DNA of 8,689 nucleotides from Candidatus Eiseniibacteriota bacterium (GCA_025453925.1 JALOPK010000126.1:1-8689); one strand, 5' to 3'; counted from the stretch's first letter, positions 1 through 4,993 are shown. Program-made: numbers and translations. Notes: generated from the letters alone by a model not told the origin.

Positions 1-1448
1 CTTCCCCGCAGTTCCTTCACCTGATCCCACGCCTGGGGCAACGGCGCGACCGGGGCGGTGGTCAGGTTGGGTCCACCCGCACCGGGGACGAAGGTCGCGG
101 ACCCATGGCCGGCGGCCCGCGCCTGTTCCGCCAGTTCCACGATATGCTGATAGGTTCTCTTCAGGTCATAGAACCCATGCCACCACGCATAGTCCGGCCC
201 CATCATCATCGCTCCCATGCGCGCGCGTCGCCCTTCGTGGTGCCAGAACTCATAGAATGCCCACTCGATCTCCTCATCGAAGACCGGCCATGCGGTCAGG
301 ATGCTCTTGGCGTAGAGATCATCCATGATGGCTTTGATGGGCCGGTAGTAGGCGTCGTTGTAGTGGACCACCGTCTCGTCCAGCCGTGCCAGGTAGTTGC
401 CTGCCCAGCGCGGCGAATGGCATTGCGTGCACACCTGGAGCATCTTCTCCCGTTCCGCATTGCCGTCATGATCCTTGTTGAGCACGGTCAGTGCGGCCTG
501 CGTCTCCCATTTCAGGCGCTCGCCGACGTCGTGGCTCGTGGCCAGGCCTCCTAGGCCCGCCATGTGGCAGGCCGCGCACGTCGGCGCGGTGAAATGGGCA
601 CCGGGCTCCCACGCATCGGGAGCAACCTCGAAGTTCCATGATTCGCCCTCGGCCAGATAACGCTTTCCGTGCTTCGACTCGAAGTAGATCTCATCCTGGG
701 GGTGATCGGGCCCGAGATGACACTGGCCGCAGGTTTCGGGTTTGCGGGCCTCGGCGATGGAGAACCGGTGGGTCGTATGGCAGATCACGCAGGCGCCCTT
801 GGACCCATCCGGATTCAGTCGCCCGCAGCCGCTGTTGGGCCAGTTCTCCGTGGTGAGCACCCCCGAGCTGATGTCTGATCCGTGGCACACATAGCAGCCC
901 GTGGATCGCTCTACGGGGCTGTTCATCCCCTTGAGCCATGGATCCTTGAGTTCCGCGGTCTGGATCTCCCAGGTGCGCGCGTGCTTGCTGAGGTCGAACT
1001 GCGCCGCCTCCCGGGGGTGGCAACGACTGCAGTCCCGTGGCGTCACCACCGGTGAGATCTTGATGTTCCTGTGCGGCATGGTCCCCGGGCACTCCGCGGC
1101 ATCCTTGTCGGTGAGCAGGGCCGCATGGCAGTCAAGGCATGTCACATTCGCCCGGGCATGAATGCTCAGGCTCCAGTCATGCACCTTCCCCGGCTCCTCA
1201 CGCGCGTGACAGGCGACACATGACGCCTCGAGCTCGCTGAGGCCCCGATCGATCTCGATCTGCCGGGGGGTGTGCGGCATTGCGTCGGCCTGAGCCCGCG
1301 CGGCGCCGGCCCCGAGAAGCGCCGCAAGGAGCATCGCCGCCAACGACACCGCCCGCAGAGGGTGCTGATCGGCGGGGCTGCCCCGTGGCCGGAGCCTGCC
1401 GACCCTGGGGGTCATTCCGCGTCGAGGACGAAGCGGTTTCGCGCTCAT
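1..1448 (-). CDS. Octaheme c-type cytochrome, hydroxylamine oxidoreductase (HAO) family, partial (C-terminus outside window)
   Basis: 482 residues are visible and the frame runs off the window edge. Residues about 31-52 form a signal peptide (basic stretch, hydrophobic core, ARA-Q cleavage site), so the protein is exported to the periplasm. Eight CXXCH haem sites are seen: CVACH 77, CLDCH 104, CSRCH 140, CYVCH 185, CVICH 220, CGQCH 240, CAACH 291 and CTQCH 340. The haem number, the NPDGS segment just before haem 5, and the MMMGPDYAWWHGFYD segment near residue 415 fit the HAO family. Members oxidise hydroxylamine or reduce nitrite, NO or hydroxylamine. Direction depends partly on a tyrosine cross-linked to the catalytic haem, and I cannot tell whether it is present. 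The start is ATG at 1448, overlapping the upstream tetraheme gene stop as ATGA, with AAGGAGGG five bases before it. The upstream NapC-type partner favours a quinol-linked reductase role, by inference. An octaheme nitrite or tetrathionate reductase-like function is less likely. Confidence 0.85.
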   Translation of the reverse strand, partial: MSAKPLRPRRGMTPRVGRLRPRGSPADQHPLRAVSLAAMLLAALLGAGAARAQADAMPHTPRQIEIDRGLSELEASCVACHAREEPGKVHDWSLSIHARANVTCLDCHAALLTDKDAAECPGTMPHRNIKISPVVTPRDCSRCHPREAAQFDLSKHARTWEIQTAELKDPWLKGMNSPVERSTGCYVCHGSDISSGVLTTENWPNSGCGRLNPDGSKGACVICHTTHRFSIAEARKPETCGQCHLGPDHPQDEIYFESKHGKRYLAEGESWNFEVAPDAWEPGAHFTAPTCAACHMAGLGGLATSHDVGERLKWETQAALTVLNKDHDGNAEREKMLQVCTQCHSPRWAGNYLARLDETVVHYNDAYYRPIKAIMDDLYAKSILTAWPVFDEEIEWAFYEFWHHEGRRARMGAMMMGPDYAWWHGFYDLKRTYQHIVELAEQARAAGHGSATFVPGAGGPNLTTAPVAPLPQAWDQVKELRG

Positions 1449-1999
1449 GGTGTCCCTCCTTCATGGTTCTGACCGAAAAGGTACTCTCTGAATCCGCCGT
1501 GGAAGAGTTCGAGATGGCAATCCAGACAACGCTGACGGCCCTTCATTCTCAGGTACTCACGGTGCGCGACTATCCCTTTGATGGAGAGGCCTTCCGGGGT
1601 GAGATTCTGGTGGCATGACCGGCACGATTCGTCGTAGACCTTCCGTCGGGCAGACGCGGCCAACTCATCCCAGTTCATCCGCGAGGGGTCGGATTCGCCG
1701 AAGAAGTGCACGAAGACATCCTTGCTCCCGTCCCGGGCTTTGACATAGAGCTTCGGGAACAGGCGGTGGGGCACGTGACAATCCGAGCACGAGGCGACGA
1801 CTCCCGCATCGTTCTGGTAGTGGCGAGACTGCATCCATCCCTGTTCACCGACCACCCGCATCTCATGGCAGGACATACAGAACGAGGAACTGGATGACCA
1901 CGAGACCCCCAGAGAGGCCGCGCCGACCAGAGCCAACGCCAGCACACCGCCGATCGCCGCGGCCGGGAGGAATCGAACCGGAAGTGAAGAGCGGCTCAT
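1445..1999 (-). CDS. NapC/NirT/NrfH-type tetraheme cytochrome c, membrane-anchored quinol dehydrogenase
   Basis: The protein has 184 aa. One N-terminal membrane segment (about residues 11-33) is followed by a periplasmic domain with four haem sites: CMSCH 41, CSDCH 71, CRSCH 126 and CLDCH 158. The first lies in a CXXCHXM context (CMSCHEM); in NrfH the methionine of that motif ligates haem 1. The length fits the NrfH/short NapC group, which takes electrons from menaquinol or ubiquinol and passes them to a periplasmic partner. The partner here is almost certainly the octaheme HAO-family protein whose start overlaps this stop by four bases, so the two are translationally coupled. The order (tetraheme then octaheme) is that of haoC-haoA in Epsilonproteobacteria, where the pair is thought to work in nitrite/hydroxylamine metabolism. 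ATG 1999 is preceded by an AGGTGATG-like site. NrfH versus NapC subfamily cannot be settled by eye. Confidence 0.9.
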   Translation of the reverse strand: MSRSSLPVRFLPAAAIGGVLALALVGAASLGVSWSSSSSFCMSCHEMRVVGEQGWMQSRHYQNDAGVVASCSDCHVPHRLFPKLYVKARDGSKDVFVHFFGESDPSRMNWDELAASARRKVYDESCRSCHQNLTPEGLSIKGIVAHREYLRMKGRQRCLDCHLELFHGGFREYLFGQNHEGGTP

Positions 2000-2076
2000 C
2001 GGGCATCACCTGCCGGGCGTAAGCGCCTGCCTGCCCCCACGAGACCGGCCGGGCATGTGAGGGGATCCCTCCGGCA

Positions 2077-2523
2077 TCATCGGCGAGGATTCGGCCCGTC
2101 CGTACCCGGCGGGAATCTCATGTCGCTGAACTGCGCCAGCGTCGTTGCGGCCAGGTAGCGGCCCACCTCGGTCTCAACCTTTGCCAGGAGCCCGCCGAAG
2201 ATGCACGTCGTTCCATCGCACGCGGGTCTTCCCAGGAGACATCCGCCCGGTGTGAGCGGGCCCTCGATGGCCTCGAAGACGTCGGCGAGGCTGATCGCCC
2301 CGGGATCCCGCGCCAACGCAAACCCGCCATGGGGTCCCCTGACGGAGCGCACGATTCCGGCTCTGGCGAGCCACTGCAGCACTTTGGCCAGGTGGGCCTG
2401 GGACACGCCGAACTCTTCCGCCATGCGCACGACGGGGACAAACGTGCCCGTGCGCGTTGCAAGAAGCGTGGCCGCGTGGAGCCCCAGCGAAGCAGCGTCA
2501 CTGACTTTCACGAGTCCTGACAT
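2077..2523 (-). CDS. Rrf2-family transcriptional regulator with three clustered cysteines (possible Fe-S sensor)
   Basis: This is a 148-aa winged-helix protein of the Rrf2 family (IscR, NsrR, RirA). The DNA-binding half includes SQAHLAKVLQWLARAGIV and the wing motif VRGPHGGFALAR (about 61-72), followed by the dimerisation helix. Three cysteines at 95, 102 and 107 sit where family members bind a [2Fe-2S] or [4Fe-4S] cluster. Their spacing, CX6CX4C, differs from the IscR CX5CX5C pattern as I recall it. The frame is open to 2577, but ATG 2523 is preferred: AAGGA lies seven to eight bases upstream and the protein then begins in the usual family way. It sits 77 bp upstream of the tetraheme gene in the same direction, so it may be a local NO or redox-responsive regulator of the cytochrome pair. 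The signal sensed is inference. Confidence 0.88.
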   Translation of the reverse strand: MSGLVKVSDAASLGLHAATLLATRTGTFVPVVRMAEEFGVSQAHLAKVLQWLARAGIVRSVRGPHGGFALARDPGAISLADVFEAIEGPLTPGGCLLGRPACDGTTCIFGGLLAKVETEVGRYLAATTLAQFSDMRFPPGTDGPNPRR

Positions 2524-2557
2524 CACGCATTCCTTCTTCTTATGACAATTCAGTACC

Positions 2558-2585
2558 AAGATACCGGTTTGACACATGCAGGCAA
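2558..2585 (-). promoter_or_regulatory. Candidate sigma70-type promoter of the rrf2-tetraheme-octaheme group
   Basis: On the minus strand TTGCCT (2585-2580) and TATCTT (2563-2558) are separated by 16 bases, each matching four of six consensus positions. Transcription would begin near 2551, leaving a leader of about 28 nt before ATG 2523. The surrounding stretch 2530-2575 is clearly more AT-rich than its neighbourhood. Just downstream lies an imperfect dyad at 2538-2559 (outer arms CTT and AAG) that could be the regulator's own operator, though it is weak. Confidence 0.35.
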
Positions 2586-2840: not shown

Positions 2841-3833
2841 TCACCCAGTCGCGCAACCCCTATCCCGCTCCAACACGCCCGTCATGCAGCCGATGCTGCC
2901 CGCCGCCTTCATGAGCTCGCCCACCTCCACCGTCGTGCACGAGACGCCGGATTCCTCGTAGCAGGCCTGACTCACAGGGCACCCCGCTGGCATGACGATG
3001 CGCCGCGGCCCCACCACCACGATGTTGAGCGCCGATCCGTCGATGACTTCCGCCTCGTCGGGCATGAATCGCACCTCGAAACCTCTGGCTCGAAGCACCT
3101 CGACTACCCTGAACGGCACCCGATTGGCCCATGTAAAGGCCAGATCCCGGTCTACGATGCGGAACGTGCCCATCAGGTGCATGGCGCCGAAGGGCAGCCC
3201 CACCGGGACGGTCTCGACGCCCATCTCCCGCAGGATCCGCGTCACCTGCGCCGCACCCTCGTCATTGGTCCGCAGGCCCGACGCCACCAGCACGGTCTCA
3301 GGATCGACCCACATGGCGTCCGCGCCTTCGAACACCCCGGTGCCGTGCACCATGCCGACCACGGGAATCCCCAAGTGCGCCAGGCGTCGCGCCACGAAGC
3401 ACTCCTCTCCGGCGCGCACCGTTGAGGCCGGCCGGCCGAGGATCACCCCTTCGGGGGTGGAGAACAGCAGGTCAGCCACGAAGAGAAGGTTCGGCGGGGG
3501 AACGACTTCAGGCTCCATCATGTTCACGGTGACCCCGCAGGCCCGGTACGCCTCAGCCAATGCACGATGCTCAGCCCGCGACGCGGCGAGCTCGGGACGT
3601 TCCAGCATCTGTGCCAGGTTGGGATCGGCTATCGCCTCCCACTCCGGCCCGGGGCAGTGGAGCAACACCGCGCGCAAACGCCGCCACTCAGTGTCAACGC
3701 CGAGCGTGCGCCAGATCCGTCCGATCTCTTCTCTGCTTGACTGCGTCCGAGGCGACCATCCGGCCCCGCCGTATGCGGCTTCAATGCGGTCCGTCACGGG
3801 ATACTCCTTGCGCGTGGTCCACCGCTCCGCCAT
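2841..3833 (-). CDS. Amidinotransferase-superfamily enzyme (arginine deiminase / dimethylarginine dimethylaminohydrolase-like)
   Basis: The protein has 330 aa from ATG 3833. Superfamily hallmarks appear in order: FVAD (Asp 121, substrate guanidinium contact), the EGADAMWV segment (169-176) in place of the usual EGGD, GLRTN (187-191), the catalytic histidine in HLMGTFRIVDRD (His 219), and the terminal nucleophilic cysteine in GCMT (Cys 316). This set fits hydrolases or transferases acting on a guanidino group, such as arginine or methylarginine to citrulline plus an amine. The exact substrate is not predictable by eye. The start was chosen because AGGAGGTG ends nine bases before ATG 3833; the frame also offers GTG at 3836 and 3839. 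It overlaps the 3' end of the WbqC gene by 53 bp, so the two are probably cotranscribed. No arginine pathway genes (arcB, arcC, arcD) are nearby, so classical arginine fermentation is unlikely here. Confidence 0.82.
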   Translation of the reverse strand: MAERWTTRKEYPVTDRIEAAYGGAGWSPRTQSSREEIGRIWRTLGVDTEWRRLRAVLLHCPGPEWEAIADPNLAQMLERPELAASRAEHRALAEAYRACGVTVNMMEPEVVPPPNLLFVADLLFSTPEGVILGRPASTVRAGEECFVARRLAHLGIPVVGMVHGTGVFEGADAMWVDPETVLVASGLRTNDEGAAQVTRILREMGVETVPVGLPFGAMHLMGTFRIVDRDLAFTWANRVPFRVVEVLRARGFEVRFMPDEAEVIDGSALNIVVVGPRRIVMPAGCPVSQACYEESGVSCTTVEVGELMKAAGSIGCMTGVLERDRGCATG

Positions 3834-4533
3834 CACCACTCACCTCCTGATCCATCCGGAGGAGCCGGCGGGCGGCGGGGCCACAGGTGAATAGCATGTC
3901 CAGAATGGAGAGATTGGGGCGAAAAGGCCCCCAGAGCTGCGGATAGACTATTGGCCGTGGGTTGACATAGCGTACGGCGATCCCTGCACGCTCGAGTGCC
4001 GCGATGTCGAGGTAGTTGCCCGCCGCCTTCTGCACGACGAACACGTCCGCGCCCAGAGCGCCGCAGAGCCGGGTCAGCAGCTCGGTGCCGGCGCCGTCGA
4101 CGCCCACGTCCGACTGCAGGACGAGGCGGGAAGAGAGGCCGACGGACGCCCAGATGTGGCGCAAGATCTCGAGGTTGAATGGGACGAGGCGGTCGTGCCC
4201 GCGATGGTAGACCGTCTCGAGGAAGGCGAGATGAAGGTCGAGGTAGGGCGCGTGGCAGTAGGCGGCCTTCAGGCTCTCCAGATGCTTGCGTATCCACCTG
4301 CCCTCGCGGCAGATCTCCACGTCTCTGATCAACTGGAGGCCCCGCCCCCTCTTCCATACCGGGACAGTAAGCCACAACTCGCCGTCGCGGCCCTTGAGCC
4401 GGTTGCGGCTGACCCACGTAGTGCCGCGGGGGAACTGAACCCCATCCAAGAGCACCACGGCGTCGGCCGCGAGGGCGGCACGGAAGAACCCCGGGTACGG
4501 CGCGAAGTTGGGGCGCTGGGCGGCGACGATCAT
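3781..4533 (-). CDS. WbqC-family protein
   Basis: The protein has 250 aa. The N-terminus, AAQRPNFAPYPGFF followed by ADAVVLLDGVQFPRGTTWVSRNR and WLTVPVWKRGRG, is the typical WbqC-family signature (QPxYxPxxGYF, then DxVQFxxxxWxxRNRIK, then LTVPV). There is no signal peptide or membrane span, so it is cytoplasmic. Family members are usually found in O-antigen, exopolysaccharide or secondary-metabolite clusters; I know of no biochemical role I could assign with confidence. No glycosyltransferases or sugar-nucleotide genes lie in this window, which makes the context unusual. Its last ~18 codons overlap the amidinotransferase gene, and this tail (from about DGGAVDH) looks like read-through rather than a conserved part. 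It starts 58 bp after the end of the upstream rrf2 gene. ATG 4533 has only a weak GGCGGGG site. Confidence 0.82.
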   Translation of the reverse strand: MIVAAQRPNFAPYPGFFRAALAADAVVLLDGVQFPRGTTWVSRNRLKGRDGELWLTVPVWKRGRGLQLIRDVEICREGRWIRKHLESLKAAYCHAPYLDLHLAFLETVYHRGHDRLVPFNLEILRHIWASVGLSSRLVLQSDVGVDGAGTELLTRLCGALGADVFVVQKAAGNYLDIAALERAGIAVRYVNPRPIVYPQLWGPFRPNLSILDMLFTCGPAARRLLRMDQEVSGDGGAVDHAQGVSRDGPH

Positions 4534-4591: not shown

Positions 4592-4993
4592 TCAGCTCAC
4601 GTCGGCCAGCGTGGTGGTCTCCAGCGTGCGGGAGACGTGGTCGCGAATCTTGCGGAACACATCCACGAGCTTCTGCTCCCGCTCGATGGGTGTCGACTCG
4701 TAGAAGTGCTCGCTCACCGATTCGGTCGGCGCGAGGGCGCCGTCGAGGTAGCGGATGATCTCCGCCAAGGAGATCTTCTCCGGCGCCTTGGCCAGTCGGT
4801 AACCGCCCCTTTTCCCCTTGCAGCTCCTCAGGTACCTGCCCCGCTTGAGGGCGAGCATGATCTGCTCCAGGAACTTCGGCGGGATGCTCTGCGCGGTCGC
4901 GATGGTCTCCACGGTGATGAAGGAATCGCTGTTCTCGCGCGCCAGGTACACCAGCGCGAGGAGCGCATACTCGCTTCGCGAGGTGAGCTTCAT
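4592..4993 (-). CDS. Rrf2-family transcriptional regulator lacking Fe-S cysteines
   Basis: The protein has 133 aa. It starts with the classic family N-terminus MKLTSRSEYALLALVYLA, followed by the recognition helix IPPKFLEQIMLALKRG (38-53) and wing SCKGKRGGYRLAK (57-69). The only cysteine is Cys 58 in the wing, and the usual cluster region (about 88-105) has none. It should therefore sense something other than a cysteine-ligated Fe-S cluster, as CymR-like members do (CymR acts through a protein partner). ATG 4993 follows a perfect AAGGAGG site. It heads the minus-strand run leading to wbqC and the amidinotransferase, and is divergent from nadA, so its targets may be itself, the following genes and/or nadA. 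The promoter region carries a dyad suggestive of autoregulation. Confidence 0.92.
   Translation of the reverse strand: MKLTSRSEYALLALVYLARENSDSFITVETIATAQSIPPKFLEQIMLALKRGRYLRSCKGKRGGYRLAKAPEKISLAEIIRYLDGALAPTESVSEHFYESTPIEREQKLVDVFRKIRDHVSRTLETTTLADVS

Follow-up and report, generated by a model that had tools for sequence, protein, structure and literature searches.

The stretch of DNA analysed here, hereafter the window, is an entire contig (C116, 8689 bp) from a fragmented metagenome-assembled genome of Candidatus Eiseniibacteriota (3.9 Mb in 502 contigs, 82% complete), a member of a barely known phylum that is represented by three genomes, the source genome and two phylum mates. Three genes at one end of the window, all on the minus strand, follow one another in the order rrf2, nrfH and occ. 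The first (2077–2523) encodes an Rrf2-family regulator, the second (1445–1999) a NapC/NrfH-type membrane-anchored tetraheme quinol dehydrogenase, and the third (3–1448) an HAO-like octaheme cytochrome c with eight CXXCH motifs (OCC), whose 3′ end is cut by the contig edge. Pfam and NCBIfam assignments and CXXCH counts confirm the identities that had been given to these genes in a first-pass annotation of the sequence. The ATGA overlap (1448–1445) through which the stop codon of nrfH and the start codon of occ are joined is confirmed as well. The rrf2 and nrfH genes are separated by a spacer of 77 nt, in which a scan detected no terminator-like site.

The octaheme cytochrome and its NrfH partner

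The occ reading frame extends from 1448 to the contig end and specifies 482 or more residues, with alignment to full-length relatives indicating that only about 2–6 C-terminal residues and the stop codon are missing. The protein matches the Pfam family Multi-haem_cyto (2.6e-34; 119 bits versus a cut-off of 21.9), all eight of its haem motifs are of the CXXCH type, and similarity across the conserved core, along with matches to HAO and OCC entries of the PDB, places it within the HAO superfamily. The closest PDB entry is 4qo5, the Ignicoccus octaheme (165 bits), followed by HAO (99 bits). In a 27-row tree that included neither HAOr nor any named Campylobacterota (epsilon-HAO) sequence, and whose long branches leave the deeper joins unsure, OCC occupies a clade of its own (100/99), which includes neither the Nitrosomonas and Kuenenia HAO proteins nor the Ignicoccus group. 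Its partners in this clade are proteins of Latescibacterota, WOR-3, Planctomycetota and Myxococcota that are 56–68% identical to it.

The haem-crosslinking tyrosine, a residue singled out in the first-pass annotation, was examined by alignment and is absent from OCC. The HAO structure chain reads WTY467TEGW around Tyr467, the cross-linking tyrosine of the Nitrosomonas enzyme. The corresponding column in OCC is occupied by a tryptophan (W423, or W422 under another gap placement), after which comes the invariant His424. The tyrosine closest to this column, Y420, is replaced by phenylalanine in the Planctomycetota homologue (L028) and is thus not conserved across the clade. A tyrosine at the cross-link site marks oxidative enzymes of this kind, and its absence marks reductive ones (PMC12758564). 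The Asp-His pair that follows the region of the sixth haem motif in HAO is retained in OCC as D248-H249, a position at which 4qo5 carries Asp-Val. An AlphaFold2 model of OCC built from 10 sequences had a mean pLDDT of 46, too low for it to be usable.

Several other class assignments were rejected. An oxidative HAO or HDH identity fails because the cross-linking tyrosine is absent and the protein branches apart from HAO, and OCC scores 78 bits against the HDH model, versus 900. Octaheme tetrathionate reductase (OTR) is disfavored by the absence of a TIGR04315 match at an E value of 0.001, and octaheme nitrite reductase (ONR) or NrfA by the presence of eight CXXCH motifs and no CXXCK, with the PF02335 match falling under its cut-off. 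The tree and the missing TIGR04315 match agree with the proposal of the first-pass annotation that the protein groups with HAO-like octahemes, here the reductive ones, and not with tetrathionate reductase. Judged from its sequence and from the adjoining nrfH gene, OCC is predicted to be a reductive HAO-like octaheme that operates with a NapC/NrfH partner, and it probably reduces nitrite, nitric oxide (NO) or hydroxylamine.

The partner gene (1999–1445) encodes 184 amino acids with four CXXCH motifs and matches Cytochrom_NNT (3.3e-32). In 10/10 genomes that carry the OCC clade, spread over Latescibacterota, WOR-3, Planctomycetota and Myxococcota, nrfH precedes occ. The clade itself is patchily distributed, being present in 3/64 Latescibacterota genomes, which suggests that it has spread horizontally. 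In WOR-3, the pair follows an Alginate_exp porin gene (L027), and because this arrangement matches the porin-NrfH-NrfA order found in another genome (G158, L116), the octaheme appears to take the slot of NrfA. Flavodiiron protein genes flank the nrfH-occ pair at two loci (L211 and L032), the latter of which also bears a gene for a DUF438-hemerythrin protein. At the Planctomycetota locus, genes for Rrf2, ferredoxin, NrfH and OCC lie on the same strand and are followed by one for a nitrite/sulphite-reductase-like Fe-S protein and, further on, by hcp. A protein combining PCP_red and nitrite/sulphite reductase 4Fe-4S domains recurs in such operons (L028:7471–8541, L166:3382–4215) and is perhaps a further nitrogen-oxide enzyme or electron carrier.

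The Rrf2 regulator and its putative operator

The product of rrf2, 148 amino acids long, matches PF02082 (3.1e-28) and contains three cysteines. Although its reading frame is open from 2577, we placed the start at the ATG at 2523, because this codon is preceded by an AAGGA ribosome site and because relatives, including an orthologue in a sister genome that is 78% identical, begin at the equivalent position. Scores below the curated NCBIfam cut-offs rule out NsrR (41.6 versus 182 bits) and IscR (52 versus 207.6 bits) as the identity of this protein, which also falls below the cut-offs for RirA and CymR. Its cysteines, Cys95, Cys102 and Cys107 (codons within 2203–2241), form a C-x6-C-x4-C triad located after the winged helix, as in Fe-S-binding Rrf2 regulators, and are putative cluster ligands. 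The triad is invariant in 14/14 aligned homologues, and 25/30 members of a wider set match the pattern. A homologue profile run over 386 genomes separated about 40 members (at least 124 bits) from ordinary Rrf2 proteins (at most 115 bits), and in a tree a 99/96 branch divides 22 members from 9 generic Rrf2 sequences. By these sequence comparisons, the regulator is placed in a single, deeply branching subfamily that is distinct from NsrR and IscR and is new here.

The recurrent neighbors of this subfamily are genes for Hcp, 4Fe-4S ferredoxin and cupin proteins, with Hcp being the most common. The source genome itself contains such a locus on another contig (C271), in which a paralogue of the window regulator resides within the order cupin-ferredoxin-Rrf2-Hcp, with the hcp gene truncated where the contig ends. 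In Desulfovibrio desulfuricans, the genes that NO induces most strongly include a cupin-hcp pair (PMC5701242). Other members of the subfamily head clusters for GltD-like flavoproteins (L187 in G307, and L118 in G018, where Rieske and cytochrome b genes are present as well), and in G044 (L122) an octaheme gene has a comparable GltD-Rieske-cytochrome b cluster next to it. One genome (G331; L171, L182–L186) carries at least six subfamily members on separate contigs, one of them with two perfect 22-bp operators, of the type described below, 700 bp apart.

Comparison of upstream regions revealed a motif, GGTAT-N4-RTACC, that lies over the −10 box behind a normally spaced TTGACA, and the full shared element is a 22-bp palindrome, GGTATTCTGGTACCAGAATACC. 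When 386 diverse genomes were searched for TTGACA-N13..16-GGTATNNTRRTAYY without regard to genes, 20 sites were recovered, compared with one for a reversed-pattern control. Eight of these sites lie at genes for subfamily Rrf2, Hcp, ferredoxin or cupin proteins, including the one on C271 and the corresponding sister-genome site, and the 12 that lack a visible regulon link may be ordinary promoters. Among subfamily members retrieved by protein similarity alone, 16/29 carry the motif, with no more than one mismatch, in the 150 bp ahead of the gene, in most cases 39–51 bp before the start codon, whereas it precedes 0/18 generic Rrf2 genes and a mean of 0.1 in shuffled sequences.

The first-pass annotation had called for a search for a shared upstream motif, and the window supplies one in common with the Hcp operons. 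Its operator-like palindrome, GGTATCTTGGTACTGAATTGTC (2544–2565, minus strand), has a strong first half. With a weight matrix built from 24 sites, the window excluded, this site (2565–2544) ranks first in the window at 17.0 bits, with the next unrelated site at −1.3, and 4 Mb of random sequence with matched GC content contained a single site at this level; operator counts in the source genome rest on pattern searches and random sequence of this kind. The window's 14-mer GGTATCTTGGTACT is identical to one that precedes an Rrf2-ferredoxin-Hcp operon in another genome (G286), and both are at −41. The same operator stands before cupin-ferredoxin-Rrf2-Hcp on C271, and the operator common to the window and to Hcp operons argues that the module is self-regulated, as had been supposed.

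Further copies of the operator accompany nitrogen-oxide genes in other genomes. In G158 (L116:1437–7810), it is located between an Rrf2 gene and the divergent porin-NrfH-NrfA genes, with a second Rrf2 gene and hcp following, and in G008 it is situated 146 bp ahead of an octaheme gene (score 28.7). The G008 octaheme (L215:743–2163) is encoded by a single gene and belongs to the HAO/Kuenenia branch; two subfamily Rrf2 genes are present elsewhere in that genome. At L025, a diverged operator (16.4) occupies the expected place ahead of rrf2. Two palindromes of the form CTATTCTA-N4-TAGAATAG in G001 (L125:5904, L126:6873) score highly with the matrix and lack the GGTAC center; they are probably a dispersed repeat and were not used as evidence.

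A candidate nitrogen-oxide response operon

We consider it quite probable that these three genes constitute an operon for anaerobic reduction or detoxification of nitrogen oxides, in which a quinol-fed periplasmic octaheme is controlled by an Fe-S Rrf2 repressor of an Hcp regulon. Without stress, a dimer of Rrf2 holding an Fe-S cluster through Cys95, Cys102 and Cys107 would cover the −10 box and repress its own operon via the 22-bp palindrome. Once the cluster is damaged, most probably by NO and perhaps by hydroxylamine, this repression would be relieved and rrf2-nrfH-occ transcribed; the regulator is probably an NO sensor. NrfH would then draw electrons from membrane quinols and deliver them to the octaheme cytochrome in the periplasm. 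The octaheme would in turn reduce nitrite, NO or hydroxylamine, towards hydroxylamine or ammonium, at a five-coordinate haem that is not cross-linked. The sequence itself establishes the genes and their order, the family placements, the missing cross-link tyrosine, the common operator and the Hcp association, whereas the Fe-S cluster, the NO signal, the repression and the activity and direction of the enzyme are inferred. In parallel, the paralogous circuit would raise cytoplasmic Hcp, and because the paralogue operon in the same genome carries the same operator, the periplasmic and cytoplasmic steps may answer the same kind of signal. The self-regulated module for nitrite, NO or hydroxylamine that the first-pass annotation envisaged is therefore both supported and sharpened by these comparisons, which place its regulator in the Hcp-associated subfamily and not with NsrR.

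The genomic setting is in keeping with that annotation's remark that the host is not an obvious nitrifier. A search that did not extend to Nap recovered no NrfA, no NarG and no member of the haem-copper oxidase/NorB family from the source genome or the two phylum mates, and for this reason the host resembles neither a nitrifier nor a classical denitrifier. The sister genome retains a syntenic nadA-DDAH-rrf2 block together with the operator. Its only octaheme of the HAO-like kind differs from OCC in that CopD-like and cytochrome b5-like domains precede it in one fusion protein (L006:505–2694; G001 C304), which makes it possibly a self-contained membrane version; this fused protein has a ninth CXXCH near its N terminus, and no NrfH gene is adjacent to it.

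Certain observations weigh against the operon as we interpret it. The second half of the window palindrome is degenerate, at a position where the sister-genome site (19.3 bits, −41 from the start) keeps GGATTACC. The promoter-like sequence reported ahead of rrf2 in the first-pass annotation does overlap a palindrome that is far above chance, with its −10 box covered by the operator, but the putative promoter itself (TTGCCT-16 nt-TATCTT, 2585–2558, minus strand) has a weak −35 box, matches at only 8/12 positions and falls under the scan threshold; a strict sigma-70 scan returned no promoter. The first-pass annotation had asked whether the gene order is conserved in relatives. The outcome that it named as refuting, an rrf2 gene that never neighbors the pair, did not occur, since rrf2 is found beside nrfH-occ in two further phyla (L025 and L028), but it lies there in just 3/10 genomes, the window included, and is thus an optional companion of a constant nrfH-occ link. 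Most of the other genomes with the pair have no strong operator ahead of nrfH. Moreover, no nrfH is found in the 306 bp between the sister-genome rrf2 and the contig end. Because that genome has rrf2 and the operator without nrfH in this interval, the pair may have been inserted, perhaps recently, after an rrf2 that was already in place, or else the sister genome may have lost it.

An alternative that we regard as possible, if somewhat doubtful, is ammonification of nitrite by respiration, the reverse-HURM route proposed for Nautilia, in which NrfH and OCC would serve as the main energy-conserving nitrite reductase and Rrf2 would only tune their expression. Occupation of the NrfA slot by OCC and the failure to find NrfA in the source genome fit this role, as does the use of HaoA, CycB and Hcp by Nautilia (PMC3701875). 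On the other hand, the same search detected no NarG-type nitrate reductase in the source genome or its phylum mates, and the regulon partners seen elsewhere (Hcp, the flavodiiron protein and the DUF438-hemerythrin protein) are stress proteins.

IscR and other Fe-S sensors of the Rrf2 family react to the state of the cluster, and the regulator might in the same way monitor Fe-S supply or general redox or oxygen stress, making the operon one for redox stress at large. Some subfamily genes do lie near NifU/NifS-like genes (L179 and L181, identified by eye) or rubrerythrin-like genes (L167), but this alternative seems unlikely given that the most common neighbor is Hcp with ferredoxin or cupin, the very cupin-hcp combination that responds so strongly to NO in Desulfovibrio (PMC5701242). 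It is less likely still that rrf2 and nrfH are adjacent by chance and that Rrf2 controls only itself and hcp. The low frequency of adjacency and the sister-genome rrf2 that has no nrfH behind it could be read in this way; however, subfamily Rrf2 genes stand next to nrfH-occ in three phyla, the Planctomycetota Rrf2 gene leads into ferredoxin, NrfH and OCC genes on one strand with hcp downstream, and in G008 the operator is placed directly ahead of an octaheme gene. Finally, superfamily membership and the reversibility in principle of NrfH-type electron flow would accommodate an oxidative OCC, a hydroxylamine dehydrogenase with quinone as its electron acceptor, but the missing P460 cross-link tyrosine, the position outside the HAO clade and the lack of any detected haem-copper oxidase family gene make this highly improbable.

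By analogy, the proposed circuit resembles a reverse-HURM-like pathway combined with NsrR-like logic, executed by another protein subfamily and another operator. The reverse-HURM/epsilon-HAO system of Nautilia and other Campylobacterota (PMC3701875, PMC2628731) likewise comprises a tyrosine-less HAO-like octaheme (HaoA), a NapC/NrfH-type quinol dehydrogenase (CycB) and Hcp encoded in the genome. In Nautilia, however, haoA (NAMH_1280) and cycB (NAMH_0559) lie at separate loci, with no Rrf2 described, whereas here nrfH and occ are translationally coupled in an operon headed by rrf2, and hcp has the same operator. The tyrosine-less anammox HAOr, which according to work cited in PMC12758564 reduces nitrite, and the Ignicoccus octaheme share with OCC the HAO fold family, but the Ignicoccus protein differs in its separate clade and Asp-Val pair, OCC having Asp-His and an NrfH partner. 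NsrR, an NO sensor that represses hmp, hcp and nrf, is likewise an Rrf2 protein with three cysteines and has hcp and nitrite reductase genes as targets (PMC1274295, PMC12285233), but the cysteine spacing here is x6/x4, and GGTATTCTGGTACCAGAATACC is unlike the NsrR operator gATGyAT-N5-ATrCATc, which also argues against an NsrR identity. HcpR, of the CRP/FNR family, has the same targets in anaerobes, namely hcp and ferredoxin genes and sometimes cytochromes (PMC1274295), although regulator family and operator are unrelated. The ammonia-forming nitrite reductase NrfHA employs the same donor family and, in G158, occupies the same operon slot behind the same regulator, with pentaheme NrfA where the window has an octaheme.

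More broadly, it is fairly probable that this undescribed C-x6-C-x4-C subfamily, with its own 22-bp operator, acts as an NO or nitrosative-stress repressor in anaerobes of many phyla, with Hcp and ferredoxin/cupin as core targets and NrfH-NrfA or NrfH-octaheme recruited as interchangeable modules. Anoxic habitats, microbial mats among them, are rich in octaheme HAO-like genes (PMC8940962). The role of these genes has been argued mostly from homology, and the common operator, by tying one octaheme clade to Hcp, offers a direct and testable functional clue. In the open-licence literature, we found no paper that links Rrf2 with octaheme cytochromes in this manner. The occurrence of the same type of Rrf2 and site at Hcp in many bacteria points to a widespread, apparently undescribed circuit for anaerobic defence against nitrogen oxides. 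It also provides a candidate NO-response regulator for phyla without a named one, and the operator GGTATTCTGGTACCAGAATACC becomes a means of locating nitrogen-oxide genes in the genomes of uncultured organisms.

Neighboring genes in the window

A second Rrf2-family gene (4592–4993, minus strand), CymR-like by score and without the cysteine triad, is located upstream of a WbqC gene and is divergent from nadA; the common operator does not precede it. Directly upstream of the rrf2 gene that heads the operon lies an arginine deiminase/DDAH-family gene (2841–3839, minus strand), and the order DDAH-rrf2 is kept in the sister genome (L163).

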